A stretch of 40,981 nt of DNA. It comes from Pseudomonadota bacterium (GTDB lineage Bacteria > Pseudomonadota > Gammaproteobacteria > Steroidobacterales > Steroidobacteraceae). Both the position numbers and the translations under genes were made by a program. A model generated the notes under the pieces. The model saw only the letters and a list, made by a program, of their open reading frames with translations, made no database searches and was not told the origin of the DNA. Below are positions 12,154 to 36,556 of the stretch, in pieces. The stretch spans positions 1 through 40,981 of the forward strand of contig JAJXYR010000041.1 of assembly GCA_021780475.1 (NCBI GenBank), given 5' to 3'. Each line of letters opens with the position of its first letter. The first letter of the stretch is position 1.

Positions 12154-12635
12154 ACTCGGGGACTCCAGACAGTCTCAACGGGGTGCACGGCATCCGCTTG
12201 CCGCGTCCGCACCACGCTCGTCACGATATCCGGAAACCCGTGGACTGGCGAATGCGACTTCTCGATCGCCGTCGCGCGGTGATTGATCGACGGAGCACTC
12301 GAGCCGACGCGTCGTCTGATCCAGTCGATCCGGCGCTTGTCGAAGAGTCGGCTATCCGCAGCCGCCGCCCGCTCGACAAGGCGGTCGGCGATGGGCTGGA
12401 GGGACCGCCCTGTCTGCTCGTCGCGTCGACACGGCGACGCGTGCGATCATCGATGAACCCCGGCGGACGGACCCGCCGCGGGGGCGGCGAGAGCGGTTGC
12501 ACGGGACCTTCGCAGGTCTCGGACGGCGTCGATCAATCTCCTCTCTCGCCGGTGCATCGAGCGATGCCCCGGCAGCTAGAGGCCATCTACCGCGTCGACC
12601 TGTGATATATCTGTCGTCGCTCCAGGAGGTTGGTC
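12154..12635. other. divergent intergenic region, no supported gene
   Basis: About 480 bases separate the alcohol dehydrogenase start from the metallophosphatase start. A long rightward frame covering 12129-12605 is arginine- and serine-rich, lacks a ribosome site and has no recognisable domain, so I do not call it. Promoters for both flanking genes must lie here but I cannot place them. Confidence 0.5.
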
Positions 12636-13706
12636 ATGCGTGATCCAACGAACGCGTTGGTCGCTCCACTGTTCGAGGGACCGATCGATGTCGTCGGTGA
12701 TGTTCACGGCGAGATCGAGCCACTGCGACGCCTGCTCGCGCAACTAGGCTACGACGCGCATGGCACTCACCCGGCCGGGCGTCGGCTGGTATTCGTCGGC
12801 GATCTGAGTGATCGTGGCCCGGATAGCCCGGCAGTCGCCGAATGGGTTATGTCGCTCGTTGTCCGCAGCCTCGCGCAATGCGTGCTCGGCAATCATGAGC
12901 TGAACATCCTGCGCAACGAGGTCAAGCACGGCAATGCGTGGCTGCTCGATCCGGCGGCCAAGGAACATCGACCGGGCGGCGAATTCGCACACTGCCGTCT
13001 CGCGGCATCACCGTGGAAGGAGCGATACGTCGCGTTTCTCGGCACGTTGCCGGTGGCTCTCGAGCGCAAGGATCTGCGCGTCGTGCACGCAGCCTGGCTG
13101 CCGAGCGAGATCGCGGCGTTGAGTGAGGCCACTGCGGGCGCGGTCGATGTCCACGAGCACTATCGCCTCATGACGGACCGACTGCTTCGGATGGAGGGCG
13201 TCGCGGAGCGCGCCGCGGTGGAGCGTGAGGCGTGGCGCCACGCGTTGCACGATCGGCACGCAGCGGTGCCGCTTCTGCCGGCGATCGGCGAAAGCGACGA
13301 ACGCCATCAGATGGGAAATCCGATCAGGGTGGCGACCTCCGGCGTGGAGCGACTGGCATCGATCCCATTTTGGTCGGCTGGCAAATGGCGCATGTGCGAG
13401 CGGGTCGCGTGGTGGCACGAATATGAGGAGCCGACGCCCGTGATCGTCGGCCATTACTGGCGTCGGCATCGACCGATTCGTGGTTCGAGCCATGCGGGAT
13501 CGAAGCTCGATCTGTTCCGGGACGCGTCCGCGACGGGGTGGCTCGGGGCGCGGCAGCGCGTCTTTTGCGTCGACTATTCGATCGGCGGGCGGTACGAGGA
13601 GCGCAAGGCGGGCTCCGCGCAATTCGACACCCGACTGGCGGCGATGCGCTGGCCGGAGCGAGAGCTCTGGTTCGAGAGTGGTCCCGCCAGCTCGATCGAG
13701 CCGTGA
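12636..13706 (+). CDS. PPP-like metallophosphatase
   Basis: The 356-residue protein carries the metal-binding motifs of the calcineurin-like/PPP phosphatase superfamily in order: GDVHG (D22, H24), GDLSDRGPDS (D56), GNHE (N86, H87), a VVHAAW histidine near 152 and VGHYW near 278. The GDxHG...GDxxDRG...GNHE spacing matches the bacterial protein phosphatase/bis(5'-nucleosyl) tetraphosphatase (ApaH/PrpE/PrpA) group. It is longer than those (about 220-280 residues) because of an insert between residues 155 and 265 with an acidic/arginine-rich helix. ATG 12636 is used because AGGAGG lies 6 bases upstream; the TTG at 12630 abuts that site and is too close. Cytoplasmic; substrate could be phosphoprotein or dinucleotide. 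Confidence 0.88.
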   Translation: MRDPTNALVAPLFEGPIDVVGDVHGEIEPLRRLLAQLGYDAHGTHPAGRRLVFVGDLSDRGPDSPAVAEWVMSLVVRSLAQCVLGNHELNILRNEVKHGNAWLLDPAAKEHRPGGEFAHCRLAASPWKERYVAFLGTLPVALERKDLRVVHAAWLPSEIAALSEATAGAVDVHEHYRLMTDRLLRMEGVAERAAVEREAWRHALHDRHAAVPLLPAIGESDERHQMGNPIRVATSGVERLASIPFWSAGKWRMCERVAWWHEYEEPTPVIVGHYWRRHRPIRGSSHAGSKLDLFRDASATGWLGARQRVFCVDYSIGGRYEERKAGSAQFDTRLAAMRWPERELWFESGPASSIEP

Positions 13707-18765: not shown

Positions 18766-19851
18766 TCAGAAGGTCGGCGCCGCCGGTGTCTTCGATATCG
18801 CGTGGTAGCGCTTGAGGGCAGCCGCTTGCATCTGGGTTCTCGCGTCCAGGACGTCATCGACACAGGGTTTGCTGTAATAGATAGCGAGTTCCATCTGTGC
18901 CGCCTTGCTCGAATCGGCGCGATTGCTCGAAATGCTCGCCCAGATCCTGACGATGTCGTCGTCGACCTGCATGTTGGGACTGCCGACGAACGAACCGCAT
19001 CGTTGGTTCAAGAGGTTGAAGTCCAGCTTAAATACGCCACCGTCGGGACGCAATGCCGTCAAGGGACCCCCGCCAGTTGGGGAGCCCACGCCATAGCTCG
19101 CATTCCAATCGGCGAAGCAGTCGCCATACTGGCAGGGTAATCGGCCCTTCTGGCTGTACGCCCACCAGAATTGGGTCAGAGCGTTGGTGTTTGTCCCTGA
19201 GGGGGTGCCGTACTTCTTGAGCAGGCTGGCCTGAATGCTGCTCACGAGCGGTTCATTGGCGGCGTGAGGGTCGAAATTGATCAGTCGCTCCATGGACACG
19301 ACCCGGCTGTCGCCCACGGGGCTGTTGAAGTCGAGCAGAAGCTGATCGGTCGTGTTCGCGGTCGCCTTGGTATATTCGACGTACTGGACGAAGGGTTGAG
19401 ACTCGACGGTAACCTCCTTGTAGGCGAGGCGGTACTTGAACCTTTGCACCACGGGACTATCCGGATAAGTCTTGCTCGCGATCTTCTCCGCCTGTGCCAA
19501 CGGCATGCCCAACCGGACACCCAGCAGGTCCTCCGCCGCGCCGGAGTACGAGGGAATGACCGGCTGGAAAGTCCGCACCAGGGGGACGGCATTCGGGTCC
19601 TGTGGGGCGCTGCCCGATGATCCCGCGACGGCCTGGGTGGGCACGGGTTGTCCGGAGGGCGCCGTGGTCGGCGCCGCCCGCGCGACCGCGTTCACCTGAT
19701 TCTTCATCTGATTGATGTTGTTGATGACGGTACCGACCGTCTTGTGGAGCATTTCGCCGAAGATCCCGTTGGCGTGGGCGGCGGACGGTGCCATCAGCAA
19801 CGCGAGCAGGAATGCCGGCAAACATCGCGAATACCACTGTGTGCTGCCCAT
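18766..19851 (-). CDS. secreted protein of unknown function
   Basis: The 361-residue protein has a clear signal peptide (PAFLLALLMAPSAAHA, cleavage near residue 27). Next comes a helical stretch (LHKTVGTVINNINQMKNQVN), a Pro/Ala/Thr/Gln-rich linker at about 58-85, and a folded domain from about 95 with LLGVRLGMPLAQAEKIASKT, a pattern typical of short repeats in which GVRLGMPL...AE(K) opens an alpha/beta unit. Four or more cysteines in CQYGDCFADW, QRCGSF and KPCVDDV suggest disulfides. ATG 19851 has GAGG 7 bases upstream. It lies between the lipoprotein and another secreted protein, so a joint envelope role is likely. No function assigned. Confidence 0.75.
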   Translation of the reverse strand: MGSTQWYSRCLPAFLLALLMAPSAAHANGIFGEMLHKTVGTVINNINQMKNQVNAVARAAPTTAPSGQPVPTQAVAGSSGSAPQDPNAVPLVRTFQPVIPSYSGAAEDLLGVRLGMPLAQAEKIASKTYPDSPVVQRFKYRLAYKEVTVESQPFVQYVEYTKATANTTDQLLLDFNSPVGDSRVVSMERLINFDPHAANEPLVSSIQASLLKKYGTPSGTNTNALTQFWWAYSQKGRLPCQYGDCFADWNASYGVGSPTGGGPLTALRPDGGVFKLDFNLLNQRCGSFVGSPNMQVDDDIVRIWASISSNRADSSKAAQMELAIYYSKPCVDDVLDARTQMQAAALKRYHAISKTPAAPTF

Positions 19852-19964: not shown

Positions 19965-20378
19965 TCAGTTCTGCGTGACCGCCATCAGCCATTTGCCTTT
20001 CCTCTTGACCCAGGTGTCGGTCGACTGCTGAACGGTGCCGTCGTGGAACACCATTTCGGCCGACACCTTGGCGTGAGCCGCGTCGATCTGCTGCATGGAC
20101 AGGATCTTCACCTGATCCAAGCCGCCGTGGGACTCGGCCTGCTGATGGGTCGCCTCCATCGCCGCGCGAATCTTGGCATTCACGTCCACGAGTTGGGCCG
20201 CGGGCGGAATGTCGGCGATATCGATCAGCTTCATGGCTTGGTCGGGATGACCGTTGCCGATGTCGGAGTAGAAATCCTTGCTCGCGGTCTTCGGGCCGCT
20301 CGAGCAGGCCGTCAAGGTCGTGGCGACGGCCGCTACGAGGAGGATTTTTTGCTTGGTCGCGCCGTGCTTCAGTGCCAT
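19965..20378 (-). CDS. lipoprotein with NTF2-like DUF4878 domain
   Basis: The 137-residue protein has a lipoprotein signal with lipobox LTAC (Cys25). The rest follows the NTF2-like pattern seen in DUF4878 lipoproteins: ASKDFYSDIGNGHPDQAMKL as first helix, HGGLDQVKILSMQQIDAAHA in the middle, and strands ending with TDTWVKRKGKWLMAVTQN. Such domains usually bind a small ligand or a protein partner. The start at 20378 lies 10 bases inside the end of the upstream YiiX-like gene, with AGGTG about 5 bases before it, so translation is coupled. It should sit in the inner or outer membrane facing the periplasm. Confidence 0.82.
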   Translation of the reverse strand: MALKHGATKQKILLVAAVATTLTACSSGPKTASKDFYSDIGNGHPDQAMKLIDIADIPPAAQLVDVNAKIRAAMEATHQQAESHGGLDQVKILSMQQIDAAHAKVSAEMVFHDGTVQQSTDTWVKRKGKWLMAVTQN

Positions 20379-20896
20379 GGATCACCTGTCGGTCGTGTGA
20401 ATAGGCTCGGTAGGATCAATTCGCGTGCCCCGAGCATCGGCAGCACGACGAGCGGGAAGGGCGGCTGCGGAGCGGCAATGCCCGCGTTGTTGAATATCCG
20501 CCACAGAAGCGAGGTGCAATACACCGCGTCGGTGCGCTTCCAGTCGTAGCGGCCATCGAACGGCGTGCCGAGATGCTGCTGCGCCTCGTGTCGCAGTTTC
20601 CTCGCCGAATCGACATCCAGACCGGAGAGGGGAATGAGACGGGCGCAGTGTGCTCGCGCGGCGAACTCGGCGAAGCGCTCTTCCCGAACGCGGCCATCGT
20701 GTCCGTGCCCCGGGTCGGCGTGAACGACGGCCCACGACCGGGAGCGGGGCAACTTGAACGCAAGACCCAAGTGCGTCCACCGACACGACGAGTCTCTACC
20801 TCGAAGGATCCGCGCTTCGAGTCCGAGCCCTTGTCGCGCCGCGAGCGCGATGCCGGGATGCCCCCGGGCGGTGCGGTTAGCGGTCTCGCGGCGCAA
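20369..20896 (-). CDS. YiiX/YebB-like protein, permuted NlpC/P60 papain-like fold
   Basis: The product (175 residues from the TTG at 20896) shows the permuted papain-like order: the histidine in WTHLGLAFKL (His42), then VVHADPG as the second strand, a LRHEAQQHLGTPFDGRYDW segment, and the nucleophile cysteine in DAVYCTSLLWRIFNNAGI (Cys127). The family includes proteins thought to cleave amide or ester bonds in lipids or cell wall. No signal peptide is visible with this start. The start is uncertain: TTG overlaps nothing and lies 2 bases after the upstream stop, and the first 30 residues do not look conserved, so an upstream frameshift or other start is possible. It overlaps the lipoprotein gene by 10 bases. 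Confidence 0.68.
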   Translation of the reverse strand: MRRETANRTARGHPGIALAARQGLGLEARILRGRDSSCRWTHLGLAFKLPRSRSWAVVHADPGHGHDGRVREERFAEFAARAHCARLIPLSGLDVDSARKLRHEAQQHLGTPFDGRYDWKRTDAVYCTSLLWRIFNNAGIAAPQPPFPLVVLPMLGARELILPSLFTRPTGDPWH

Positions 20897-20897
20897 C

Positions 20898-21146
20898 TCA
20901 GTTCCCGCTGGGAGTGGTTCGAGAATTCTTGCCGGTTTCGATGGCTCTGACCGACGTCTGAATGTCGACCAGCAGCAGGAACGCACCGAAGAACACGACG
21001 CAGAACACGAAGGCCGCGACGAGCGAGACGATCGCAGCACCGAAGCCCTTCATGGCCCAGCCGGTAATGAAGGTGCCGATCAAGATCAGCCACATCGAGA
21101 CTTCGAGCAGGATCTTGTAGGAGGCGACGATGAGTCGACTAAGCAT
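20898..21146 (-). CDS. small two-helix membrane protein
   Basis: The 82-residue protein has two strong hydrophobic segments: IVASYKILLEVSMWLILIGT into FITGWAMKGFG, and AAIVSLVAAFVFCVVFFGAF into LLLVDIQ, followed by a polar tail. ATG at 21146 is preceded by AAGGAG at 6-base spacing, the best ribosome site of this series, so it is likely the first gene of the operon. I do not recognise a named family. It is divergent from the winged-helix/kinase gene 418 bases away and its position suggests a role with the YiiX-like protein and the lipoprotein. Confidence 0.75.
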   Translation of the reverse strand: MLSRLIVASYKILLEVSMWLILIGTFITGWAMKGFGAAIVSLVAAFVFCVVFFGAFLLLVDIQTSVRAIETGKNSRTTPSGN

Positions 21147-21564
21147 GATTCGCTCCTTGGCGCGCTAGGTGAAGAGGTCGGCTCGGCATTGCATGCCACC
21201 GCCGCAGGGTTTGGGGAGCCTGAGACCGTTGGTCGCGCGGCGTTACCATCGGGACCCCGCAGGCGCGCGCAGGCCGATTGCCATGGCGGCGACGCTCAGT
21301 CGCAAGGCGGCGGCGGCGTGTGCGCGAAGGACGCAGCCGGGGTTGCTCCCGGAGGCCCCCCTTGTGCGATCCGCACTGCAGTACCAGAATCCCATCGATT
21401 CCCCCTAGGCCGGAGGGGTCTTCGCGAGCGCGCGAGCCCTCCGCCCTTCGGCAAGTCTTATCGCTGGGCAAGGCGGCGCATGTCTTCACCGGACATTCAA
21501 CAAACGCTAACCCGAAGAAAAGTCATAAATAACAAACAGGTGCACCTGACCGCCGGAGACCGAT
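21147..21564. other. divergent control region between envelope operon and kinase gene
   Basis: About 418 bases separate two divergent transcripts. The left two-thirds is GC-rich with only arginine/proline-rich shadow frames. The last 60 bases (21501-21540) are strikingly AT-rich (CCCGAAGAAAAGTCATAAAT then AACAAACAGG) and probably hold the kinase-gene promoter. The kinase protein carries a DNA-binding domain, so this region is the first place to look for its target. Confidence 0.45.
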
Positions 21565-24318
21565 GTGGGCGTTGAACCGCCTCCGACACGGGATATTCAG
21601 TATCGATATCGATTCGGGACCGCCGAATTCGACGAGGTCCGGGTCGAACTTCGCGTCGATGGCGAGTGCGTCGAGATTCAACGACGTCCCCTCGAGGTGC
21701 TCGCCGTTCTGCTGCGTCATGCTGGCGAGGTGGTCACGCGGGAGGAACTGCGCGAGGCGGTCTGGGACAAGCGCATCACGGTGGACAACGTCATCGATAC
21801 GGCGCTGACCAAACTCCGCCACGTCCTCGGCGAGCGCAATGCGGAGCTGATACAGACGCAACCCCGGGTGGGATTCCGCCTGCTCGGTCCCGTCGAAAAG
21901 GTGGCGGTCGGACGGCGATTCCCTGGAGAGCTCGTCCTGTCCGAAGGTCAGGCGATTGCGCATCGGGAGCACTTCCAGTTGGTGCGCCTCCTCGGCTGCT
22001 CGCCACACGATCAGGTCTGGCTCGCGCGGCACGTCAAGACGCAGGAGCGGCGCGTATACAAGTTGAGCGCCGGCGGCGAAGGACTCGACGCGTTGAAGCG
22101 GGAGGTCACCTTGGCGCGTGTACTGCGCGAGAGCCTCGGTGAGCGCGAAGACCTGGTGCGCATCCTGGATTGGAATTTCAAGGAGCCGCCGTTCTTCCTC
22201 GAAAGTGAGTACGCAGGAGAGAATCTCGTCGATTGGGCCGCCGCGCATCTCGGCAGCACGCCGCTCAGCGAGCGCCTGGCCCTGCTCGCTCAGGTTGCCG
22301 ATACCGTCGCGGCGGCTCACGGCGTTGGCGTGCTCCACAAGGACCTCAAGCCCGCGAATCTCCTGATCTCGAGCGGGCCCGGCGGGACCCGGGTCCGTGT
22401 GACGGATTTCGGCAGCGGACGGCTTCTCGAACCAGATCGCCTCGCCGCACTCGGCATCACCCAGTTCGGCGCGACGCTGACGCAAGGGGTGACGGCGGAC
22501 TCGGACGCAGCCACGCCGCTCTATGTCGCGCCGGAGCGGTACAAGGGCGAGACGGCCACCACCCGGAGCGACGTTTTCGCCCTGGGGGTCATGCTGTACC
22601 AGCTGGTGGTCGGGGATTTGCGCAAGCCCCTGGCCCCGGGATGGGAACGCGACGTATCCGACGAGATTCTGCGCCGGGACATTGCTGCGGCGACCGACGG
22701 CGATCCCGCGGCACGCTTGGGAAGCGCCGCGGAACTCGCGGACCGACTGCGCCGCGTTGATGAACGGCGAAGCGAATTGGCACGCCAGCGAGCGCTGCAG
22801 CGCCAGCTGAACGCGGACCACGAAGCGCTGCGCCACGCCCGCGCCCGTCGCCCCTGGGTGATCGCGACCATCGTCACGCTCTGCGCAGGCATGATCGGCA
22901 TGCTTGGGCTCTTTGCCAGCGTGACGTCGGCACGGCGGTCGTTGGCGCGTCAGTATGCCGTTGCCCACGTGCTCAACACCTTTCTGACCGACGACTTCAT
23001 CGCGGTCGCCAATCCGGACCAAGCCGGCCGTGCCGACGTCACCGTGGTCGAAGCGACACGTGCGGCGGCGTCGAAGATCGATACGGTGTTCCGGCAGGTG
23101 GGACCAGACGTCCGCGGCCGCCTGCACGCAGCGATGCAGAGGTCGTTTTTCGGGCTCGATGACTTTCCCGCAGCGCTCGCGCAAGGACGCGAGGCCTTGA
23201 CGGCGTACCGGGCCGCGAGCGCTCTCGATCCCCAGCGCATCGCCGAGGCGCGCATCCTGCAGGCGCTGACGCTCGCGAAGCTTTCGAGGCTCGACGAGGC
23301 CTCCGCACAACTCGCGCGCGCAGCAGCCGCGATGAAGGCGATGCCCCGAGTCAGCCCGACTGTGAACGCGCAGTACTGGTGGGCGCGCGCATCGGTCGAG
23401 TCCTATCGGCTGGCGCTCCCCCAGGCGCTCGCCGACTACCAGCACGCCTGGATCTTGGCGAAGGCGGCCTCCGGATTGCCGCTCCAGGTGCGTGATCAGA
23501 TCGGGTTCTCCTATGCCGACACCTTGCGCCTGTCCGGGCACTTCGGCACCGCCGAGCGGCAGGCGTCCGCACTGCTCGCGAGCGAGCGAGCTCAATTGGG
23601 GTCGGACTCCCCGGAAACTTGCTATACGGCCGCATTGCTGGCGAGCATCCTCGGTTTTCGCGGTGAGACGAACCGAGCCATCCCGATGGTGACGCAGGCG
23701 GTCGCGTGCCTCACCCAGTCGCTCGGACCGACGAACGCGCGGACCATTGCGGCTTATCAGGTGATGGGCAATCTGCAATTCCAGGGTCGCCGTTATGCGG
23801 ATGCCGCGGTGACCTACGCCAAGGTCGCGAATCTGTTCGCCGGTGTCGTGGGGCCGCAGGCGCTGAAGACCATTTCGGCCCGGGAGAACACCGGCGTCGC
23901 TCGGCAGTACGCCGGACAATTCGATGCAGCCCAGGACTCCTTGCAGAAAGCGCTGGCGCTCGCCCGCACCGCGCTCGGCTGGACGCATCCCACGACCGAG
24001 GACTTGCGCTACCACCTTGCCGACTGCCTGCTCGATCTGCGCCGCACCGTCGGTGTCGATGCCCTCATGGACGGCCTTTCCGTGCGCGTACTAAACGAGG
24101 GGGAAATCGAATCGGATTGGATCGCGCGTCTCGCCTATCAGCGCGGCCGACTGGCGTTCTACGCCGGACATATGCAAGTGGCCGTGCAACTGCTGCAGGG
24201 CGTGGCGAAGCAGATCGCCGCCCAGGATCCGAACGGTCCGATCAGCGTGAGCGCGATACAAAGCCTGATCCGGACTGCGCAGGCGGTCGAAGCGGCCAAA
24301 CGCACGACCCCGGAGTGA
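21565..24318 (+). CDS. winged-helix DNA-binding / Ser-Thr kinase / TPR membrane protein
   Basis: One 917-residue chain joins three modules. Residues about 18-107 are an OmpR/PhoB-type winged helix (RPLEVLAVLLRHAGEVVTRE through IQTQPRVGFRLLGPV). Residues about 136-400 are a Ser/Thr kinase with the expected residues: Lys166 (VYKLSAG), Glu180, HKDLKPAN at 258-265, DFG at 281-283, APE at 322-324. The glycine loop (LLGCSPHDQVWLA) has lost its later glycines. Residues 431-452 form one membrane helix, and about 460-917 are helical repeats (TPR-like). DNA binding and kinase face the cytoplasm and TPRs the periplasm. GTG 21565 is supported by GGAGA at 5 bases. It may pass an envelope signal to gene expression by binding, phosphorylation, or both. 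Confidence 0.9.
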   Translation: MGVEPPPTRDIQYRYRFGTAEFDEVRVELRVDGECVEIQRRPLEVLAVLLRHAGEVVTREELREAVWDKRITVDNVIDTALTKLRHVLGERNAELIQTQPRVGFRLLGPVEKVAVGRRFPGELVLSEGQAIAHREHFQLVRLLGCSPHDQVWLARHVKTQERRVYKLSAGGEGLDALKREVTLARVLRESLGEREDLVRILDWNFKEPPFFLESEYAGENLVDWAAAHLGSTPLSERLALLAQVADTVAAAHGVGVLHKDLKPANLLISSGPGGTRVRVTDFGSGRLLEPDRLAALGITQFGATLTQGVTADSDAATPLYVAPERYKGETATTRSDVFALGVMLYQLVVGDLRKPLAPGWERDVSDEILRRDIAAATDGDPAARLGSAAELADRLRRVDERRSELARQRALQRQLNADHEALRHARARRPWVIATIVTLCAGMIGMLGLFASVTSARRSLARQYAVAHVLNTFLTDDFIAVANPDQAGRADVTVVEATRAAASKIDTVFRQVGPDVRGRLHAAMQRSFFGLDDFPAALAQGREALTAYRAASALDPQRIAEARILQALTLAKLSRLDEASAQLARAAAAMKAMPRVSPTVNAQYWWARASVESYRLALPQALADYQHAWILAKAASGLPLQVRDQIGFSYADTLRLSGHFGTAERQASALLASERAQLGSDSPETCYTAALLASILGFRGETNRAIPMVTQAVACLTQSLGPTNARTIAAYQVMGNLQFQGRRYADAAVTYAKVANLFAGVVGPQALKTISARENTGVARQYAGQFDAAQDSLQKALALARTALGWTHPTTEDLRYHLADCLLDLRRTVGVDALMDGLSVRVLNEGEIESDWIARLAYQRGRLAFYAGHMQVAVQLLQGVAKQIAAQDPNGPISVSAIQSLIRTAQAVEAAKRTTPE

Positions 24319-26305: not shown

Positions 26306-26527
26306 GTGGAGAGGCTTCGTCGCGACAATTCGGAGTTCCGGCGGCTAGCGATGCTCGCCGATACGTCGATGACGCAGCTCGGGATCAGCGTCCACGATTA
26401 TCACCCGCTCGACGGTCGCGTCTCGCCGCTCCAGGATCCGCAGCGGGTGATCGCGGAGATGCCGGCATCGCCGATGGCCGAGCCGTGCGTCGGCTCGCTC
26501 GAGCGGGCGCTCGCCGCGGGGCGGTGA
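26306..26527 (+). CDS. doubtful small ORF
   Basis: A 73-codon frame from GTG 26306 follows the propeller-like gene by 15 bases. The text (LAMLADTSMTQLGISVHDYH...) is moderately protein-like with a helical ending, but there is no ribosome site and no recognised family. It could be a remnant. It converges on the DoxX-like gene. Confidence 0.2.
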   Translation: MERLRRDNSEFRRLAMLADTSMTQLGISVHDYHPLDGRVSPLQDPQRVIAEMPASPMAEPCVGSLERALAAGR

Positions 26528-26543
26528 CGAGACGCGCTCGTCG

Positions 26544-27476
26544 TCATCCGGAGGCGAGCTCGGCGCCGCCTACCCAGAGGAACAGAAACGGGATCAGATA
26601 AATCAGGACATTACCGAGCACATTGCCTCGGACCCCGGTTCCGGCGGTCGTGTAAGGTCCCCCAAAGGCTTCCGCGGTCGCCCAGACCGCAAGCGAATAC
26701 GCCAGACCAAACGGAACGAAGACGCGCAATCCCTTGCCGCTGAGCAGCGCAATGGCGATCGCGATCTCCGACAGGCCGACGAGAACCGCGACCGGCACGG
26801 GGCCAACCGCGTGGACGATCCCGACGACGAACCCGAGCCAGGCGGCGATCCAGTGAGGTTGCCCGGGGATGACCGACGTGATCTGGCTGCTGAAATGCAA
26901 CAGGAACGCCGGTAGCCATTTGAGCGCTGCATCGAACAGCCACAGCACTCCGAAGCTGATCCGCGCGGCGTGCCAGATCCGGCCGGGCGGTGCCGTCTGT
27001 GCGCTGTGGCGGTCGGTCGCCGGTGCAACGGCGAGCACGAACAGGAACGCGATCGCATAGGCGACGAACACGCCGGGGTCGGTCTGTCCGCCGCTATACG
27101 GGAATCCGAAGCCGTCGAGGAATACCCAGCAGATCACGCTGAACACGATGCCGGTGCGGGCCGCGAGCGCGACCTTCCGGCCGCTCAGCAGTGCAAGGCC
27201 CAGCCAGACGGCGATCGCGACCAGAGCGCCGGCGATGATCCGCGGACCGATCGTTTGCGCCAAGTGCAGCGCGGCAAGCAGCAGTGGCCGGATCCCTGCC
27301 GGCACCTTCGAGGCGGGCTTCGCGAGCGCGTGGAGGAAGTTGGCCTCGGCCGCCGGCACGGCCAGCCAAGCCGTCGCCTGAAACACGGCATTCGCCAACC
27401 AGACCGCGCCGAAACCTCGTACGATCGAGTTCAGGGCCGGGCCGTGCGTGGTATCGGATCGAACCGCTGCGGTCAT
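26544..27476 (-). CDS. internally duplicated DoxX-like membrane protein
   Basis: The 310-residue protein has about eight hydrophobic segments arranged as two similar halves. In the first half LLSGRKVALAARTGIVFSVI is followed by CWVFLDGFGFPYSGGQT and an AIAFLFVLAV helix; in the second LLSGKGLRVFVPFGLAYSLA is followed by VWATAEAFGGPYTTAGT and IPFLFLWVGG. Each half resembles a four-helix DoxX-type unit (FGAVWLANAV... and FGVLWLFDAALKWLPAFL...). DoxX-like proteins are linked to quinone and redox partners, but no activity can be claimed here. ATG 27476 has GGAGAA at 5 bases. It is the last gene in the minus-strand series after the XdhC pair, 167 bases on. Confidence 0.72.
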   Translation of the reverse strand: MTAAVRSDTTHGPALNSIVRGFGAVWLANAVFQATAWLAVPAAEANFLHALAKPASKVPAGIRPLLLAALHLAQTIGPRIIAGALVAIAVWLGLALLSGRKVALAARTGIVFSVICWVFLDGFGFPYSGGQTDPGVFVAYAIAFLFVLAVAPATDRHSAQTAPPGRIWHAARISFGVLWLFDAALKWLPAFLLHFSSQITSVIPGQPHWIAAWLGFVVGIVHAVGPVPVAVLVGLSEIAIAIALLSGKGLRVFVPFGLAYSLAVWATAEAFGGPYTTAGTGVRGNVLGNVLIYLIPFLFLWVGGAELASG

Positions 27477-27572
27477 GCGAGTTCTCCACCGGTTGCGTGC
27501 TGCGGGTCAATTCCGAGCGGCCGAGCAAGGATACTCCGGTCCACGAGGCGCTGCCTATCGCGGAGTCGGCCG

Positions 27573-27592
27573 GGATCCGCGCGACCGGATCC
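27573..27592. repeat. GGATCC-type intergenic hairpin (copy 2)
   Basis: Arms GGATCCG (27573-27579) and CGGATCC (27586-27592) around a 6-base loop. It lies between the XdhC C-terminal gene (ends 27644) and the DoxX-like gene (starts 27476). It shares the GGATCC core and the CCGGATCC right arm with copy 1. Confidence 0.45.
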
Positions 27593-27643
27593 TTGCCGGG
27601 CGATCGCGCGACGACCCAACGCCCACGTCGCGGCGGCAGGGTC

Positions 27644-28330
27644 TCATGTCGTGCGATAGCGCGTCTGGATGATCTCGGCGATGATCGCGATCGCGATCTC
27701 GCCGGCGGAGCGACCTCCCAGATTCAGACCGACCGGTGCCCGCAGCCGCTCCGATCCGTCGATGCCGTGGGCGGCGAACCGTTCGAGCCGCGCCGCGTGG
27801 GTTCGCCGGCTGCCGAGCGCGCCCACGTAGAACGCCGGACTCGCGAGTGCCGCGATGAGCGCGGGGTCGTCGAGCTTCGGATCGTGCGAGAGCGCGGCCA
27901 CCGCGGTCTGTGCATCCGGAGCGAGCGTCTCCAGCGCGACGTCGGGCCACTCGTGCGTCACCGTCGTGTCGGGAAACCGCTCGACGGTCGCGAACGCGGT
28001 GCGCGGATCGACGATCGTGACGTCGAACCCTGCCATCACGGCCGCGGGTGCGAGCGCCTGGGCGATGTGCACCGCGCCGACGATGATCAGTCGGTACGCC
28101 GGCGTGTAGCATCGGATGAACAGTGCCGGGTCTGCGCGCAGTCGTCCGCTGCGATCGTGTCGGCAGCGGTCGCGAACCTCCGCGAGCACCGGCTCCGTGA
28201 GTTCGAGATCGCCCTGCGGGCCCCGCGCCGGATGGAGCGACTGTGCGCCGTCGCGCAGCCGCGTCACCACCGCGATCGCTTGCCGCTCCGCTCGGGCCCG
28301 GGCGATTTCGAGGAGGAATGCGCTCTTCAT
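27644..28330 (-). CDS. XdhC/CoxI family protein, C-terminal (Rossmann) half
   Basis: The 228-residue protein holds the Rossmann-type C-terminal domain of XdhC/CoxI proteins: YRLIIVGAVHIAQALAP (the usual GAGH is GAVH), FDVTIVDPRTAFATVERF, ALSHDPKLDDPALIAAL and the hallmark FYVGALGSRRTHAARLERF. It ends with NLGGRSAGEIAIAIIAEI. XdhC proteins bind molybdenum cofactor, help sulfurate it and load it into xanthine-dehydrogenase-type enzymes. The ATG overlaps the stop of the N-terminal half gene (ATGA), so the two are coupled and should act together. No molybdo-hydroxylase gene lies in the window, so the client enzyme must be elsewhere. Confidence 0.88.
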   Translation of the reverse strand: MKSAFLLEIARARAERQAIAVVTRLRDGAQSLHPARGPQGDLELTEPVLAEVRDRCRHDRSGRLRADPALFIRCYTPAYRLIIVGAVHIAQALAPAAVMAGFDVTIVDPRTAFATVERFPDTTVTHEWPDVALETLAPDAQTAVAALSHDPKLDDPALIAALASPAFYVGALGSRRTHAARLERFAAHGIDGSERLRAPVGLNLGGRSAGEIAIAIIAEIIQTRYRTT

Positions 28331-28662
28331 TCGACGCGCTCCACGTAAACGGCGATCCGTCCTCCGCAGGCGAGCCCGACGCTCCAGGCCTGTTCATCGC
28401 TGACGCCGAACTCGAGCTGTCGCGGCTTGCCGTCCGCGATCACCTCGAGCGCCGCCTCCACCACCGCGCCCTCGACGCAGCCCCCGGACACCGAGCCGAC
28501 GAAGCCCCCGGTGTCGGCGACCGCGAGGTGACTGCCGACCGGCCGCGGCGAGGAGCCCCAGGTGTCGATGACGGTCGCGAGCGCCACCCGTCGGCGATCC
28601 TGCTGCCAGCGCCGCACTTGCGTGAGGATCTCGTCGACTTCCGATTCCGCTCGCTGGGTCAT
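28327..28662 (-). CDS. XdhC/CoxI family protein, N-terminal half
   Basis: The 111-residue protein is the XdhC_CoxI N-terminal domain alone: RRVALATVIDTWGSSPRPVG, then HLAVADTGGFVGSVSGGCVE, with the conserved cysteine and glycine-rich SVSGGCVEGAVVEAAL segment. In full-length XdhC the two domains are fused; here they are separate overlapping genes, a known arrangement in cox-type clusters. ATG at 28662 is preferred for its GGGAG ribosome site at about 8 bases; an in-frame ATG at 28683 lies upstream. It should act with the following gene in molybdenum cofactor handling in the cytoplasm. Confidence 0.88.
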   Translation of the reverse strand: MTQRAESEVDEILTQVRRWQQDRRRVALATVIDTWGSSPRPVGSHLAVADTGGFVGSVSGGCVEGAVVEAALEVIADGKPRQLEFGVSDEQAWSVGLACGGRIAVYVERVE

Positions 28663-28733
28663 GATGACGCTCCCCCGGAACATGGCCGGTGCTCAGATCG
28701 GGACAGGTGGGGTCCGCGGCACGGCGGACGCGG

Positions 28734-29474
28734 TCACATCTCCTGCGTGATCGGCCGGAACAGCACTTCGTTGATGTCGACTTCCTCCGGCTGACAGATC
28801 GCGAACGCGACGACGCGCGCGAACGACTCGGCGGGGATCGCGTAGTTCTCGTAGAATTCGCCGACCCGCTTCGCGACGTCTGGCTCGGTGACGCTGAGCG
28901 GCAACTCCGACTCCACGGCGCCCGGGGAGATGATCGTCGTGCGGATGTTGTACGGCTTGACTTCCTGGCGCAGCCCCTCGGAGACCACCCGCACGGCGGT
29001 CTTGGTCGCGGAGTAGACCGCGGTGCCGGGACGCACCTTGTGTCCGGCCACCGAGGACACGTTGATGATGTGTCCACTGCGGCGTGCCTTCATGTGCGGC
29101 AGTGCGGCGGCGATTCCGTAGAGAACGCCCTTGAGGTTGACGTCGATCATGCGGTCCCAGTCCTCGATCCGGCCGCGCTCGAGCAGTGATTGCGGCATCA
29201 GTCCGGCGTTGTTGATCAGCACGTCGATCCGCCCGTGCCACTCCACCGCGCCGTCCACCAGGCGGCGCACCTGGTCCGCATGGGTGACGTCGGTCTGCAC
29301 CGCCGCGCGTGGCGGCAGCCCGAGTTCGCCGGCCAGTGCCTGCAGGCGTTCGATGCGCCGCGCCCCGAGCACGAGTTTCGCGCCGGCGCGGGCGAGATGT
29401 CGCGCCGCTGCTTCGCCGAGTCCGCTGCTCGCGCCGGTGATTACGATGACCTTGTCCTGGATTCCCTCGCTCAT
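28734..29474 (-). CDS. short-chain dehydrogenase/reductase (SDR)
   Basis: The 246-residue protein is a classical SDR: cofactor motif TGASSGLG at 13-20, Arg39-Arg40 after the second strand (favouring NADP), NNAG at 88-91, catalytic Ser near 141 (INVSSVAG), and YSATK with Tyr154 and Lys158, followed by the [12 protein letters not shown] segment. It oxidises or reduces an alcohol/ketone; the C-terminal substrate loop ([20 protein letters not shown]) gives no clear hint. It lies 54 bases after the lipase-type hydrolase gene and 71 before the XdhC pair, all on one strand, so it may work on a product of the hydrolase. Upstream GGAG is visible. Confidence 0.93.
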
Positions 29475-29528
29475 CGGTACTCCTCCGTCGGACGTTGCCC
29501 CTGATCCCGCGTTTGCATCAATGGCGCC

Positions 29529-31166
29529 TCAGCGCGTGTAGCGATCGAAGAACGACCGCGCCAGCACCATGCAATACGGTGCCGCGTCCGTGTGGTAGGC
29601 CTCCATGCCGACGACGGATCCGCGGGCGCCATCCACGCCGTGTTGATATGCGGTGAACGCGCGCTGCAATCGCGTGGCCGTGCGGTGCAGGCTCGCGTTG
29701 CGCGTGGCGTCGATGCCGTGTTCGAAGTAGGTGCCGGCGGTTCCCGCGGAGGTGTCGAGGTCCACGGTCGCGAACCGCAGGTGCGGATCGGTGGCGATCT
29801 TGGATCGTAGCGCCGCGGTCATCGCGCCCGCGCCCTGCTGCCAGAATACCTCGGGGTCGCCATGGCCGCCGCACATCAGCAGCGGCATGCTCGGCGTGTA
29901 GTTGCGCAGGTCGTTGGCCTTCGCGTCGCGACGCATCCGCAATTGCGGATCGGTCGGCAGCGTCGGCACCGTGTTCGAGGGGTCCGGCCCCGAGGCGACG
30001 GGTGGCGCTGCGCTGTCGGGATGCGCCTCGACATCAGCGACGTACGCGGCGCGGAACGCCGTACTCACCAGATACGCCGAGGGATCGAACCCGGCGTGAT
30101 AGAGCGGCCCTCCTTCCGGGAGGGCGGCGAGTGCCGGATAGCGCGCAGGGGAAAAGCCCGGAGCACCCGGGGCGGAGGACTTCGACTGGAACATCGCGTT
30201 CGCCGGGAGCTCGCCGGCGGCGACGAGCTTCGCGAAGTCACGGAACCCGCTGGATCCGGGGAACAGGCTGGCCGCGTCACGGAACCGTCGACTGAACACG
30301 CGATGCGGATCGATCGACCCGTGTTCGAGGTGCGCGTACGAGTTGACGACCAGCGGCAGATACGCGGTGCCGCCGAAATCCGGATGACCGAGGAAGATCT
30401 CGTCGGCCATCGCGAGCAGCGCGTAAGGTCCGGACATCGGCGCGCCGGCGGTCGCGGGTTCGCCCCGCTCGTCGAGCGCGCGCAGCGTCGCCATCGAGAC
30501 GAAGCCGCCTTGCGAATACCCGGTGACGAACAACTGGCCGTCGTCACGCGTCGATCCACCGATCCGCTGCAGCAGCGCCCGCCCGGCGATGAGGCTGTCG
30601 ATCGCATCCTGCGACTGCTGCCTGCGGTTCAGGTACGGATGGTAGTGCAGCGTCGACAGGTCATAGCCTGCGTAATTCGGAGCCACCGCGACGTAGCCGT
30701 GGGCCGCGAAGATGAGCGCGATGCGGGTGGCGGTGCCGTAGGCCGGATTGTCGGGGTCGGCGACCGCCGACAGATCTTCGGCATGGTTGATCGCCGTGCC
30801 ATGCGTATACAGCACGATCGGCCGGGGGCCATGGCAGGGCGCGGCGTTGCCCGAGGGAACCATCAGGGCGCCGGAGGCATCCGTCGCCTCGCCCTCGCCG
30901 CCGACCGTCGCGTAGGCGAACTTGTATACCCGGACGCCGCAGATCGGCGGGCCGATCAGGGCGCCGAGCGCCGGTTGGTTCGCGAAGTCCTGGCGCAGCA
31001 TCGCGCGCAGAGCGGCGACCGACAGGGTGGCCGGCGCGCCGAGCGGCCCCGAGTTCAGCGACGCCGCGGCGTCGCGCGAGGGCGGCGCACGATCCGCGAT
31101 CGCGCCGATGCTGAACACGATGGCGCCCGCCACGCCGAGGAGCACGTTCGCATAGGGAATACGCAT
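29529..31166 (-). CDS. secreted alpha/beta hydrolase, secretory-lipase family
   Basis: The 545-residue protein has a signal peptide or anchor (MRIPYANVLLGVAGAIVFSI...) and belongs to the same secretory lipase group as the protein at 7475-8731. The nucleophile elbow is GYSQGG with Ser about 218; IVLYTHGTAIN gives the oxyanion region; VAVAPNYAGYDLST and the CGGHGDPEVFWQQG region near 440, where the acid residue should lie, follow. The ending HTDAAPYCMVLARSFFDRY holds the likely histidine area. ATG 31166 is chosen for the signal peptide; the frame opens at GTG 31214 but adds only a basic leader. It follows the TonB receptor by 123 bases, so it may degrade a substrate imported or sensed by it. 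Confidence 0.86.
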   Translation of the reverse strand: MRIPYANVLLGVAGAIVFSIGAIADRAPPSRDAAASLNSGPLGAPATLSVAALRAMLRQDFANQPALGALIGPPICGVRVYKFAYATVGGEGEATDASGALMVPSGNAAPCHGPRPIVLYTHGTAINHAEDLSAVADPDNPAYGTATRIALIFAAHGYVAVAPNYAGYDLSTLHYHPYLNRRQQSQDAIDSLIAGRALLQRIGGSTRDDGQLFVTGYSQGGFVSMATLRALDERGEPATAGAPMSGPYALLAMADEIFLGHPDFGGTAYLPLVVNSYAHLEHGSIDPHRVFSRRFRDAASLFPGSSGFRDFAKLVAAGELPANAMFQSKSSAPGAPGFSPARYPALAALPEGGPLYHAGFDPSAYLVSTAFRAAYVADVEAHPDSAAPPVASGPDPSNTVPTLPTDPQLRMRRDAKANDLRNYTPSMPLLMCGGHGDPEVFWQQGAGAMTAALRSKIATDPHLRFATVDLDTSAGTAGTYFEHGIDATRNASLHRTATRLQRAFTAYQHGVDGARGSVVGMEAYHTDAAPYCMVLARSFFDRYTR

Positions 31167-31289
31167 GAGAGTTCGCCAGGGTCGAGGGTTCGTGAGTGGA
31201 GATCGGCGACGCACTGGAAGCGATCGGGGTCATCGACATCCTATCGAATGACCGGGATGGGGTCGAGCCGCATGAACCGGCGCGACGGA

Positions 31290-33590
31290 TCAGAATTCGT
31301 AGGTGAAATCGATGCCGACCGAGCGTGGCCGCTGATAGAAGGAGACCCGTTGACCTTCGCTGCCGGCGAACGCGTAGGTCAGGGGTCTGGCGTCGGTGAC
31401 GTTCGTCGACCACAGACTGGCGTTCCAGTGTGCCTGCCGGCTGCGTATCCCGACGCGAACGCCCATGTCGTGGCCGCGTCCGAACGTCGTGGGATCGCCG
31501 AGGTACGGATGGATCGCACCCACGAAGCGGTCGTTCGCCTGCACGAACCCGATGAAGTTCGCGGAAAGCGGATGCTCGTAGTGCACGATGTAACTCCAGG
31601 TGAAGTTCGGCGCGTCGGGCAGCATTTGACCGACCTGGACCGGCGTGAAGAGCGCGAGTCCGTTATCGCTCGTCAGGGTCTGCGTCACGCGCGCATCGAG
31701 TCGGGTCGCGGCGAGATGGATCTCGAGGCCGCGCACCGGGCGCCAATCGGTCTCCACCTCGATGCCGTCGATCCTCGACCGGGGGACGTTGCCGAGGCCG
31801 GCGATCAAGGGTTGTGTGCCGACCGGACCGGCCCAGAGCGACAGGCTCGACTGGCGATTGCGAATCACGGAGTCGAACACGTCCATGTCGAGCTGCACCG
31901 AGTCGTCGAGAAACCGGCTCTTGATCCCGAGTTCGCTCGTGAGGTTCGTCTCCGGCTGGACGTACCCCCAGTCGACCTGGACCTGTGCGGGCTGGCCGTA
32001 GTAGATCCCCGCCTTGTAACCGCTCGCGACGCTGCCGTAGAGCAGCACCTCCGGCCTCAGGTGGTAGTCGAGCCCGACGCGATACGAGACGTTCTGATTC
32101 GAGCGTGAGTCATCGAGCGCGGCGAGCACCGTGTTCGGCACGATCGGCCCGCTGAAGTTGTTGGCCGCATAGGTCAACAGGCCCGTCGGGTCGATCGTGA
32201 CGCCGTCGAACGAGGTTTGATCGTGCGAATAGCGCAGCCCCGTCACGAGCGTCAACCGGCTCGACAGGTGGGTGTCGACGTTCGCGTAGACGCCGCTCGA
32301 GCGTTGTCGCTGGACGAAATTCTCGGCGGTGATCGCCAGGCCTTGCTGGGTCATGTCGGTGGCAAGACCGTAAACGAACGTCCAATCCAGCGCGTCGCGA
32401 TTGCGATACCAGTTCTGCGAGTAAATGGCGCCGATGATCCAGTCGACCGGGCCGCCGCTCTTCGACGTCAATCGGACTTCCTGGCTCAGCTGCCACTGCT
32501 GGAAGTTCTTGGTCCAGTTGTTGTCGGCCGCCGGATAGCCGTCGTAGTTGTCGAGGCTGTGATCGGTGAAGTAGTCGTAGGCGCTGATCGACGTGAGCGT
32601 GAACGCTGCGAACGCGACCTTCAGCTTCGCCGACGCTCCCCCGCCGACCTCGTGCTTGTAGAGCGGCAGGCCGCCGACCCGAACCCTCGTGCCGCCGGGC
32701 GGGCTGTCCATCAGGCCCGCGGTCGGGAACGGCTCCGGCGGGATCAACGCCTCGACGTTCGGGGTCGACGGTGACGAGGGCACGGAACGGTCGTACACCC
32801 AATGAAGATTGAGATCGAGGTTCGCGGCGTCACTCAACCGGATGTCGAACAACGCCCGGGCGCCGCCGCGATGGAGCTTGCCGTATCGTTGTCCCGTGCC
32901 GAGGTCGGTCTGGTAACCCTCGCCCTGGGTCGTCATCGTGCCGGCGAGCCGCGCCTTCACCCGATCGTTCAGCGGTCCACTCACCGCGCCGGTCAGATCG
33001 ACGGTGTTCCAGCGGCTGTAGCCGAGTTCGACGTACCCGCCGAAATGATCCGTGGGTTGCGCGGAGATGATGTTGATCGCGCCGCCGTCCGTATTCTTGC
33101 CGTAGAGCGTCCCTTGCGGACCCTTGAGGATCTCGACGCGGCCGACGTCGTACAGCGTGTCCGTCAGAAAGCCGGGAAAGCTCGCGAACACGCCGTCCTG
33201 GTAGATTCCGACGCCGCTGCTGTTGTTGTTGTTGAAGTCGTCGAGTCCGATGCCGCGCAGCAAAAAGAGCGGCGTGCCGTCGGTTTGCGCATTCATGGTC
33301 GAGAGGCTCGGGTCGACCAGCGACAGGTCGAGCGGTTGCTCGACGCGCAGGGAATGGGTCAGGCGGCCACTGACCGCGGTCAGTGCGATGCCGACGTTCT
33401 GGGCGGGCTCCGCCCGACGGGTCGCGGTGACGACGATCTCGCGCAGGGGCCGATGATCGTCGGCTGCGGCGTCCGCTGGGCGCTCGCGCGAGTCCGCCGC
33501 CCGCGCCGTCCAGGGGACGAGCGAACCTGCGATCAGGAGCGCACGCCAGCCGCGGCGCGTGATCTTCGAGCGTTGTCGATCCCGCTGCAA
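31290..33590 (-). CDS. TonB-dependent outer membrane receptor
   Basis: The 766-residue protein has a signal peptide (ALLIAGSLVPWTARA, cleavage near 31), an EIVVTATRR sequence that usually begins the plug after the TonB box, and the plug signatures LFLLRGIGLDDF, GVGIYQDGV and VEILKGPQGTLYGKNTDGGAINIIS. The rest is a beta barrel with alternating strands and ends in FTYEF, the terminal Phe recognised by the Bam machinery. It should take up a large or scarce ligand across the outer membrane with TonB energy. The ligand is unknown; linkage to a secretory-lipase-type hydrolase and an SDR suggests an ester or terpenoid/steroid-like compound. The start is TTG at 33590, with no in-frame ATG nearby. 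Confidence 0.93.
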   Translation of the reverse strand: MQRDRQRSKITRRGWRALLIAGSLVPWTARAADSRERPADAAADDHRPLREIVVTATRRAEPAQNVGIALTAVSGRLTHSLRVEQPLDLSLVDPSLSTMNAQTDGTPLFLLRGIGLDDFNNNNSSGVGIYQDGVFASFPGFLTDTLYDVGRVEILKGPQGTLYGKNTDGGAINIISAQPTDHFGGYVELGYSRWNTVDLTGAVSGPLNDRVKARLAGTMTTQGEGYQTDLGTGQRYGKLHRGGARALFDIRLSDAANLDLNLHWVYDRSVPSSPSTPNVEALIPPEPFPTAGLMDSPPGGTRVRVGGLPLYKHEVGGGASAKLKVAFAAFTLTSISAYDYFTDHSLDNYDGYPAADNNWTKNFQQWQLSQEVRLTSKSGGPVDWIIGAIYSQNWYRNRDALDWTFVYGLATDMTQQGLAITAENFVQRQRSSGVYANVDTHLSSRLTLVTGLRYSHDQTSFDGVTIDPTGLLTYAANNFSGPIVPNTVLAALDDSRSNQNVSYRVGLDYHLRPEVLLYGSVASGYKAGIYYGQPAQVQVDWGYVQPETNLTSELGIKSRFLDDSVQLDMDVFDSVIRNRQSSLSLWAGPVGTQPLIAGLGNVPRSRIDGIEVETDWRPVRGLEIHLAATRLDARVTQTLTSDNGLALFTPVQVGQMLPDAPNFTWSYIVHYEHPLSANFIGFVQANDRFVGAIHPYLGDPTTFGRGHDMGVRVGIRSRQAHWNASLWSTNVTDARPLTYAFAGSEGQRVSFYQRPRSVGIDFTYEF

Positions 33591-33607
33591 GGAAGCCCCC
33601 CCATCAC

Positions 33608-33632
33608 GGATCCCGGGGATGACCCGGGATCC
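33608..33632. repeat. GGATCC-type intergenic hairpin (copy 3)
   Basis: The longest of three similar palindromes: arms GGATCCCGGG (33608-33617) and CCCGGGATCC (33623-33632) with a 5-base loop. It lies between the SYLF gene end (33704) and the TonB receptor start (33590), so it may end the SYLF transcript or fold in the receptor leader. No T-run follows on the minus strand. Confidence 0.6.
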
Positions 33633-33703
33633 GGCGGGGCGAATCGTTCCATGCGCGGCCGAGTACTACCAGGGATAGGAGACGCCTGGCTCCGCGCGCG
33701 GTG

Positions 33704-34273
33704 TCAGCGCGCCGGCTTGAACGAGAACTTCTGTCCGGCCACCGCGGCCTGGTACATCAGCCCGCCCTTCGCGATGGTGAACACCGCGACGCCGTCCTGG
33801 TACACGCCCGCCGCGGTCGCGTGCGTCTCGGTGCCGCTCGCGCCGGCGGTCGCGCCGGCGGTGCCGGCGCTCGCGGAGGCGGACGCGGTGATCGCCACCG
33901 CGCTGACGTCCGCGCTGAAGGCGTATTTTCCGGACTCGAAGCGCGCGAGCGCGGCCGCGTTCTGGAAGAACACCATCTCGCTGTAGGCCTGCCCGCCGAG
34001 CTGAAAGCCGACGCTGATCTGGGTCATCGAGGTGTCACCGACGTACCGGCCCTGTCGGAATACGCGACCGTCCCCGTGTGCCGCGCCGACGATGAATCCG
34101 CCCTTGCCGATCGTCGGGAAGACGGCATAACCGTAACTCGTTCTGAAGAAATCCGCGGTCTCGCCGGCATGCCGGAACAAGGCGATCGTGTCCGTGTATC
34201 GATCCGCGCGCGCAAGCGGGGCGATCAACACCAGCGCGAGGCACGCAGCGCTTTGCCAGGTCATTGACTTCAT
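33704..34273 (-). CDS. SYLF/Ysc84-domain secreted lipid-binding protein
   Basis: The 189-residue protein has a signal peptide (WQSAACLALVLIAPLARA) and the SYLF/Ysc84 pattern: YGYAVFPTIGKGGFIVGAAH, GRVFRQGRYVGDTSMTQISV, then GFQLGGQAYSEMVFFQNAAA and a C-terminal AVFTIAKGGLMYQAAVAGQK that ends FSFKPAR. SYLF proteins bind phosphoinositides or other lipids; bacterial members are envelope proteins with unclear role. ATG 34273 has GGAGGG about 8 bases upstream and starts the signal peptide, so the longer frame to 34363 is not used. An alanine/serine/threonine-rich stretch (SASASAGTAGATAGASG) is inserted between residues 128 and 148. Confidence 0.9.
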   Translation of the reverse strand: MKSMTWQSAACLALVLIAPLARADRYTDTIALFRHAGETADFFRTSYGYAVFPTIGKGGFIVGAAHGDGRVFRQGRYVGDTSMTQISVGFQLGGQAYSEMVFFQNAAALARFESGKYAFSADVSAVAITASASASAGTAGATAGASGTETHATAAGVYQDGVAVFTIAKGGLMYQAAVAGQKFSFKPAR

Positions 34274-34359
34274 GGAACGGCCCTCCGGTGCTAGATGCTG
34301 CATGGTATCCCGAATCGATCGGGAGGGAGAGACGCGTGCCGAAGCGCTCGTGCCGCTGT

Positions 34360-35334: not shown

Positions 35335-35343
35335 CAGTAAATC

Positions 35344-35358
35344 TTATCAAGACCATAA
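35344..35358. promoter_or_regulatory. LysR-type box between divergent genes
   Basis: TTAT (35344-35347) and ATAA (35355-35358) form a dyad with 7 bases between; it contains the T-N11-A pattern of LysR binding sites. It lies in the AT-rich gap between the regulator start (35334) and the YeiH start (35428). Binding is inferred from position and pattern. Confidence 0.5.
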
Positions 35359-35370
35359 AAAATAGAAAAT

Positions 35371-35382: not shown

Positions 35383-35427
35383 CGCCGGGCCGTAGAGTGA
35401 CGCTCCTCGAGATTTCGGAGCCGATCG

Positions 35428-36522: not shown

Positions 36523-36556
36523 TTCGCGCGCCCGCGCGGCCCTGCGCGCTGGTATC

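Follow-up and report, generated by a model that had tools for sequence, protein, structure and literature searches.

Transmembrane transcription regulators (TTRs) of the CadC/ToxR type carry an N-terminal OmpR-type winged helix, one membrane helix and a C-terminal part beyond it. A census of TTRs describes hybrids with histidine-kinase and receiver domains (PMC10269533; this and the other papers cited here are drawn on in part). No Hanks kinase appears among the TTR hybrids in the parts of that census examined, its supplements lying outside them. Here, we analyse a stretch of 40,981 nucleotides from a Steroidobacteraceae genome (assembly GCA_021780475.1, contig JAJXYR010000041.1; hereafter, the window), in which a gene at 21565..24318 on the forward strand encodes a regulator of 917 amino acids. 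Its predicted topology is the same as that of the CadC/ToxR proteins; it differs from them in having a Hanks-type Ser/Thr kinase of ~270 residues between the winged helix and the membrane. In its anatomy, as known from sequence, the regulator is a Hanks-kinase hybrid of a TTR.

A second point of comparison is the receptor kinase PknS, which autophosphorylates and phosphorylates the sigma factor EcfK (PMC13147305). The authors of that work suggest that the periplasmic TPR part modulates phosphorylation. Full-length PknS was not seen phosphorylated without a cue, unlike truncated forms lacking the periplasmic part, and truncated forms did not complement (PMC13147305). For ECF43 factors more generally, activation is attributed to a neighbouring kinase (PMC8999054). 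With PknS and the ECF43-linked kinases, the regulator, again by predicted topology, has in common the kinase, the membrane helix, the periplasmic TPR part (PMC13147305) and a membrane-proximal segment. It differs from them in that no ECF sigma gene adjoins it, its transcription output is fused in cis, its kinase falls in a separate tree group, and the glycine loop, kept in PknS, is lost. The window protein looks like the same receptor layout as PknS, with a transcription output fused on.

Two further systems combine comparable parts. Bacteroides hybrid two-component systems, which are hybrid TTRs, hold a sensor, a kinase and a DNA-binding domain in one membrane chain (PMC10269533), but use His-Asp chemistry, whereas the regulator has a Ser/Thr kinase and no receiver, HisKA or HATPase domain. 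In EmbR/PknH of Mycobacterium tuberculosis, an OmpR-type winged helix and a TPR-like part likewise stand under a Hanks kinase; these are, however, two separate proteins, and EmbR carries an FHA domain as the link (PMC4601284). HisKA, HATPase_c, receiver, FHA and BTAD domains were all absent from the nine Pfam families matched in the window's regulator. Among open-access titles and abstract openings, with subscription papers and supplements outside that range, we found no published description of a chain of winged helix, Hanks kinase, membrane helix and TPR.

Domain anatomy and integrity of the gene

A preliminary description, made from the letters of this DNA, had read one chain of winged helix, kinase, membrane helix and TPR tail. 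Domain search and structure prediction recovered both the winged helix and the kinase fold, and the whole domain order is borne out by Pfam matches above cut-off together with AlphaFold folds (full-length model: mean predicted local distance difference test score, pLDDT, 82; predicted template-modelling score, pTM, 0.50; 14-row alignment).

The OmpR/CadC-type winged helix spans residues 18-107 (21616..21885, forward strand). Pfam Trans_reg_C matches residues 33-106 (E-value 1.1e-14, above cut-off), the full-length model places an OmpR-type winged helix inside residues 11-106, and the domain folded alone reaches a pLDDT of 94 (AlphaFold2, 13-row alignment). Its Foldseek matches in the PDB are OmpR/PhoB-type domains, including PhoB on pho-box DNA, CadC and ToxR. 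Arg85 of the recognition helix is kept in all 21 aligned members of the family; T58 is also invariant, and may only cap a helix. Beyond the family, a winged-helix profile gave 34 matches at E ≤ 1e-18, in open reading frames (ORFs) of 301-842 amino acids, which is long for response regulators. A motif script resolved the frames in 12 of 28 such loci, and the ten of these that were scanned with Pfam all carry Trans_reg_C, with TPR in nine, an alpha/beta hydrolase in one, and a receiver or kinase domain in none. The nearest scanned winged helices outside the family thus belong to winged helix-TPR proteins without a receiver, and the head is therefore CadC-like, as first described. In one distant member (L021, at locus L042), part of the helix-turn segment is missing from the winged helix, with the kinase residues kept.

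The Hanks-type kinase occupies residues 133-400 (21961..22764, forward strand). Pfam Pkinase matches residues 175-351 (E-value 3.2e-20, above cut-off), and the best PDB match by both sequence and fold is 9eed, PknS of Xanthomonas citri (by fold, 25% identity and a template-modelling score of 0.65 by target). Lys166, HKD 258-260, DFG 281-283 and APE 322-324 are intact, in agreement with the preliminary description, and Glu180 and Asn265 are kept as well. Across the 21 aligned members, Lys166, Glu180, His258, Asp260, Lys262, Asn265, Asp281, Gly283 and the APE residues are invariant, and the Phe of DFG is present in 20. The activation segment, from DFG to APE (residues 281-324; 22405..22536, forward strand), contains three threonines, of which T299 is kept in 20 of 21 members and T304 in 17, while T317 is Thr in 17 and Ser in four. 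The glycine loop is degenerate: it reads LGCSPHDQV in the window protein, without the GxGxxG motif, and is shortened in some members. Since GxGxxG is found in one member of 21, the altered loop that had been noted earlier is a family trait and no local defect. That the loop is lost while everything else is retained suggests an enzyme that is active but handles ATP unusually.

The window protein has one hydrophobic stretch, from residue 432, at the site of the single helix already placed at residues 431-452 (22855..22920, forward strand), which is preceded by Arg-Arg and predicted to be N-in. AlphaFold2 predicts a helix over this stretch at low confidence (pLDDT < 50 at 429-449). In all 14 members compared by hydropathy, the strongest hydrophobic stretch sits behind the kinase, and Lys and Arg are commoner in the 20 residues before it than in those after it. 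By predicted topology, the kinase is probably on the inner side of the membrane and the TPR part on the outer side. The tail of ~450 residues had been read as TPR-like. It comprises a membrane-proximal segment and a TPR array (22942..24306, forward strand), is probably periplasmic, resembles ECF-linked receptor kinases, matches Pfam TPR_12 in four stretches (E-value 4.5e-13, above cut-off) and is modelled as a helical TPR array to residue 914.

Such a chain could be an artefact if a misassembly had joined two genes, or if the real gene lay on the other strand. The genome is in 323 contigs, and an antisense ORF of 830 amino acids (21523-24015, reverse strand) overlaps the regulator gene; homologues are also overlain by long antisense frames. 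A fusion by misassembly is, however, ruled out by a second assembly (L009) that carries the gene at 99.8% identity on a contig of 63,953 bp, with three differing bases in 3172 over 21147-24318, by a relative (L010) whose regulator is 77% identical, and by cultured Solimonas with tandem copies. The architecture recurs in further genomes, and the reading of one gene, not two fused ORFs, holds. Between the window and L010, substitutions at codon positions 1/2/3 of the forward frame number 145/122/368, and the whole-gene ratio of nonsynonymous to synonymous substitution rates (dN/dS) is 0.19. The forward frame, which opens with a GTG start, is therefore the true gene and is under purifying selection. 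The antisense ORF, rejected as a real gene by this substitution pattern, is the shadow of a high G+C gene, as codon-position bias shows. We regard either artefact as practically negligible. Of the segments compared with L010, the activation loop (residues 285-317, 33 codons) shows the lowest dN/dS, 0.043; the winged helix follows at 0.075, then the kinase at 0.14 and the TPR part at 0.23.

Family distribution and relatives of the tail

The regulator belongs to a real, conserved protein family. The genome counts are lower bounds, with four candidates scored per genome for the order and the phylum and two for the class; the three samples overlap, and all counts include the window's own genome. 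Within the order, the architecture is present in at least 9 of 196 genomes when the protein is the query and in at least 17 of 396 when a winged helix-kinase profile is used. These 17 genomes contain 19 matches, each spanning both winged helix and kinase (one from position 32, at a contig end). At least 5 of 369 genomes passed in the class, including L026, a kinase-TPR protein without a winged helix, and L025, with a different tail. For the phylum the count is at least 6 of 398, and three of these genomes lie outside the class. A plasmid search with the regulator protein at an E-value of 1e-20 returned no match.

In an unrooted kinase tree of 45 rows (L012a and L012b left out as near copies; L021 a long branch), the 19 winged-helix rows form one side of a branch with support of 100/100. 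Because all 19 matches are joint and this branch is fully supported, winged helix and kinase appear, as sampled, to have been kept together since one origin. In L025 (1-2808), winged helix and kinase are joined to another membrane-anchored tail, for which TolB_N and TPR score below threshold; the tail may therefore be exchangeable. L016 has a shorter tail, the whole protein measuring 726 amino acids. Two Solimonas species carry tandem head-to-tail copies (L011, 5242-7992 and 7992-10715; L012, 5212-7962 and 7989-10685), the frames of S. flava meeting at base 7992. These copies are perhaps a heteromeric pair.

The tail is most like that of receptor kinases beside sigma genes. We took 29 loci (L069-L097) around strong PF07638 sigma matches, which we presume to be ECF43-type; a kinase lies within ~1.5 kb of the sigma gene in 19 of them. 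A profile of the membrane-proximal segment (residues 453-560) matches 14 of these 19 kinases at E ≤ 1e-3, mostly behind the kinase domain, many of the 19 being cut by locus ends. The same profile also matches L026 and L032, none of five other kinases of the window's own genome, and one of nine CadC-like proteins, there via its TPR half only. The tail is thus closer to ECF-linked receptor kinases than to CadC-like proteins, and the regulator looks more like a receptor kinase with an acquired CadC-type head than like a CadC protein with an inserted kinase. The preliminary description had favoured the insertion; its CadC-like head stands, while the tail points the other way.

PF07638 has six matches in the window's own genome, none of them on the regulator's contig, and a search for an ECF sigma gene adjoining the regulator found none. 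The regulator is therefore not an ECF43-linked kinase. Direct descent of its kinase from the ECF-linked kinases was considered and rejected as stated: the unrooted tree gives a separate group, and only the C-terminal segment ties the two. The tree itself neither supports nor excludes such descent. The genome does contain a PknS/EcfK-like pair on another contig (C161; L045, 2742-5761), in which a PF07638 sigma gene (E-value 1.5e-37) adjoins a kinase-membrane-TPR gene.

Candidate operator at the divergent promoter

A probable operator lies upstream of the regulator gene, at 21485..21512 (forward strand), and ends 52 bp before the start codon. It consists of three direct repeats of 11-bp period, TTCACC-N5-TTCAAC-N5-CTAACC, and falls inside the region 21147-21564 named in the preliminary description for mapping of DNA binding. 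Eleven base pairs is the spacing of PhoB/OmpR boxes. Such tandem repeats were first seen by reading the intergenic DNA of ten loci. They take the form GTCACG-N5-CTAACG-N5-CTAACG at L035, CTAACG-N5-CTAACG-N5-CTAACC at L036, ATAACG-N5-GTAACG-N5-ATAACG at L043 and TTCACG-N5-CTAACG-N5-CTAACG at L053. Solimonas has another word with the same spacing (CTGAGG/TTGAGG), which neither genome contains anywhere else.

Perfect TAACG pairs occur upstream in 5 of 18 loci, and in 0 of 300 randomisations of each. When period-11 triples were scored blind to sequence, 6 of 16 loci reached 14 or more (maximum of five in 1000 randomisations, and of five when other stretches of these loci were drawn 300 times) and three reached 16 or more, which never occurred in 1000 randomisations. 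With seven held-out loci added (L149-L153, L155 and L156, six of them outside the window's subclade by recognition helix), a score of 14 was reached in 7 of 23 loci (1 of 2000 randomisations) and a score of 16 in 3 of 23 (never). The held-out locus that passed, L149, is of the subclade and has another word, 309 bp upstream. Three loci (L140, L141 and L145, with best scores of 11, 12 and 9) were set aside because they nearly duplicate L010, the window and L039; upstream DNA of L038, L039, L041, L042, L044 and L024 scored 9-13. In a cross-locus word test over 16 loci, the best word occurred in four, and 48 of 200 randomisations reached four or more, so that the words were no commoner than under the null. 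Within the seven-locus subclade, chosen after the repeats had been seen, four loci shared the best word, TAACGA repeated at period 11, a result reached in 3 of 300.

The pattern is rare in whole genomes. STAACGN5STAACG has seven sites in ten genomes, four at the regulator (by construction) and three elsewhere, with four genomes without a site; the reversed control has 23 sites. A degenerate triple has seven sites in seven genomes, five at the regulator (again by construction) and two elsewhere, with two genomes without one and two sites for the control. In the window's genome it occurs once, at the regulator, the pattern having been drawn up to include that site. Compared with L010, the best-conserved 28-bp intergenic stretch is 21475-21504 (27/28 identical, against a mean of 58%), and the operator site itself is conserved at 25/28 (rank 11 of 391). 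We regard the repeats as a probable operator in the window's subclade and in Solimonas, but not across the whole family, with DNA binding predicted. A simple scan of 20880-21640 detected no promoter or terminator.

In 16 of 17 loci, the regulator and its 5' neighbour point away from each other; among other genes of the same loci this holds for 60 of 188. In this count, some loci are near relatives, genes were called by our own caller, and small genes next to the regulator were skipped in the window, L010 and L042.

Proposed mechanism, alternatives and surroundings

We propose, giving this reading roughly even chances, that the protein is a membrane-held one-chain regulator which is built on a receptor kinase, is dedicated to the divergent promoter of its own gene and has its DNA binding controlled by its own kinase. 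The TPR tail, outside the inner membrane, would sense a ligand, a partner protein or the state of the envelope. This signal would alter the pairing of chains, and the kinase may then autophosphorylate in trans on its activation segment, as the conserved catalytic residues and the example of PknS suggest. Head-to-tail stacking of winged helices on the 11-bp repeats upstream of the regulator's own gene would then depend on phosphorylation of the winged helix or linker (for the winged helix, either in cis or between the chains of a dimer) or directly on the new pairing; these repeats are seen in one subclade and presumably bound there. Orientation and the rarity of the site point to a divergent operon of exported proteins as the main output, together with autoregulation.

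With somewhat less confidence, we suggest that the regulator may be the Hanks-kinase counterpart of hybrid two-component systems, with a winged helix that serves as dedicated substrate of its own kinase and an operator at the chain's own divergent promoter. If true, it would be a one-molecule PknS/EcfK pathway with the sigma factor replaced by a fused transcription factor, and a single molecule may detect an external signal, phosphorylate and switch a gene. This touches two open questions: the way in which regulators held in the membrane gain access to DNA, and the control of transcription by bacterial Ser/Thr kinases. A single gene with its promoter supplies the kinase, a candidate substrate, the sensor and a probable operator of 28 bp, so one protein and a short piece of DNA would be enough to test whether phosphorylation is linked to DNA binding. 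Kinases that have lost the glycine loop yet retain each catalytic residue checked are a further feature of the family.

Several results count against the proposed regulator. The operator was spotted by eye before the formal test, and the window's own site scores only 12 when scored blind. The held-out loci alone reach 14 in one of seven, which is chance level, and the repeats were accordingly rejected as a family-wide trait. Periods 9, 21 and 24 reach 14 in 6, 7 and 6 of 23 loci, where period 11 does so in seven, and at a score of 16 periods 9 and 11 are level with three loci each; codon periodicity of flanking genes, which the null does not keep, may lie behind these other-period scores. Two genomes, G048 and G937, are without a degenerate-triple match at their regulator. 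In the kinase tree, the winged-helix kinases are not placed inside the ECF-linked ones, and their stem is long. Finally, the canonical glycine loop is absent in 20 of 21 members, and no phosphosite of the winged helix can be named.

The state of the glycine loop, together with its shortening in some members, would fit a pseudokinase or ATP-gated switch, which binds ATP and transmits a change of shape while the winged helix acts in the CadC/ToxR manner without phosphorylation. Pseudokinases usually lose some catalytic residues, however, and here the Lys, the alpha-C Glu, HxD, the Asn, the Asp and Gly of DFG, and APE are kept in 21/21, with the activation loop the most constrained of the segments compared; we consider this explanation unlikely. 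The rarity of the operator can also be read in another way. Nearly unique in the genome and placed at the gene's own promoter, it would suit a protein with two outputs, in which the substrates of the kinase are other proteins, as EcfK is for PknS, and the winged helix does no more than tether the receptor to the promoter of its own gene, for autoregulation. The C-terminal part common to receptor kinases beside a sigma gene is consistent with this, but the 30 window frames scanned with Pfam include none for a sigma factor, a PPM phosphatase or an FHA protein, and winged helix and kinase occur together in every one of the 19 matches, so that a second set of substrates also seems rather improbable. 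We give still less credence to a head that has lost DNA binding and works as a protein contact or dimer domain. The incomplete winged helix of L021 would allow it, whereas the dN/dS of the winged helix, the lowest of the domains, the invariant Arg85 and the direct repeats upstream in the subclade all speak for a head that binds DNA. A calcineurin-like phosphoesterase (12630-13706; Metallophos, E-value 1.4e-10), which lies ~8 kb upstream of the kinase gene, may be a phosphatase nearby.

The genes divergent from the regulator encode a small membrane protein of 82 amino acids (20898..21146, reverse strand; coding status by codon bias only), a lipoprotein-like protein with DUF4878 (19965..20378, reverse strand; Pfam E-value 4.2e-8) and a secreted protein of an unnamed family with the motif LGM...KYG...W.Y (18766..19851, reverse strand; leave-one-out hmmsearch E-value 3.6e-16). 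Judged by eye, several of the divergent genes begin with export signals. The unnamed family has no Pfam match at 0.01 and stands beside the regulator in five loci, namely the window, L010 (2716-3345), L035 (10780-11976), L036 (5634-6770 and 6802-7554) and L037 (5832-6842). Leave-one-out searches recovered four of five seeds; L036 5634-6770 was missed, and L036 6802-7554 was recovered at 2.3e-5.

Farther from the regulator, window positions 2251-6124 carry a pyridine nucleotide/4Fe-4S oxidoreductase, POR_N and TPP_enzyme_C in a row, a cluster like that of a 2-oxoacid:ferredoxin oxidoreductase. Few frames pass a filter on third-position G+C in 1-24000, and many do in 26500-40981. A compositional boundary between the left and right parts of the window is possible.

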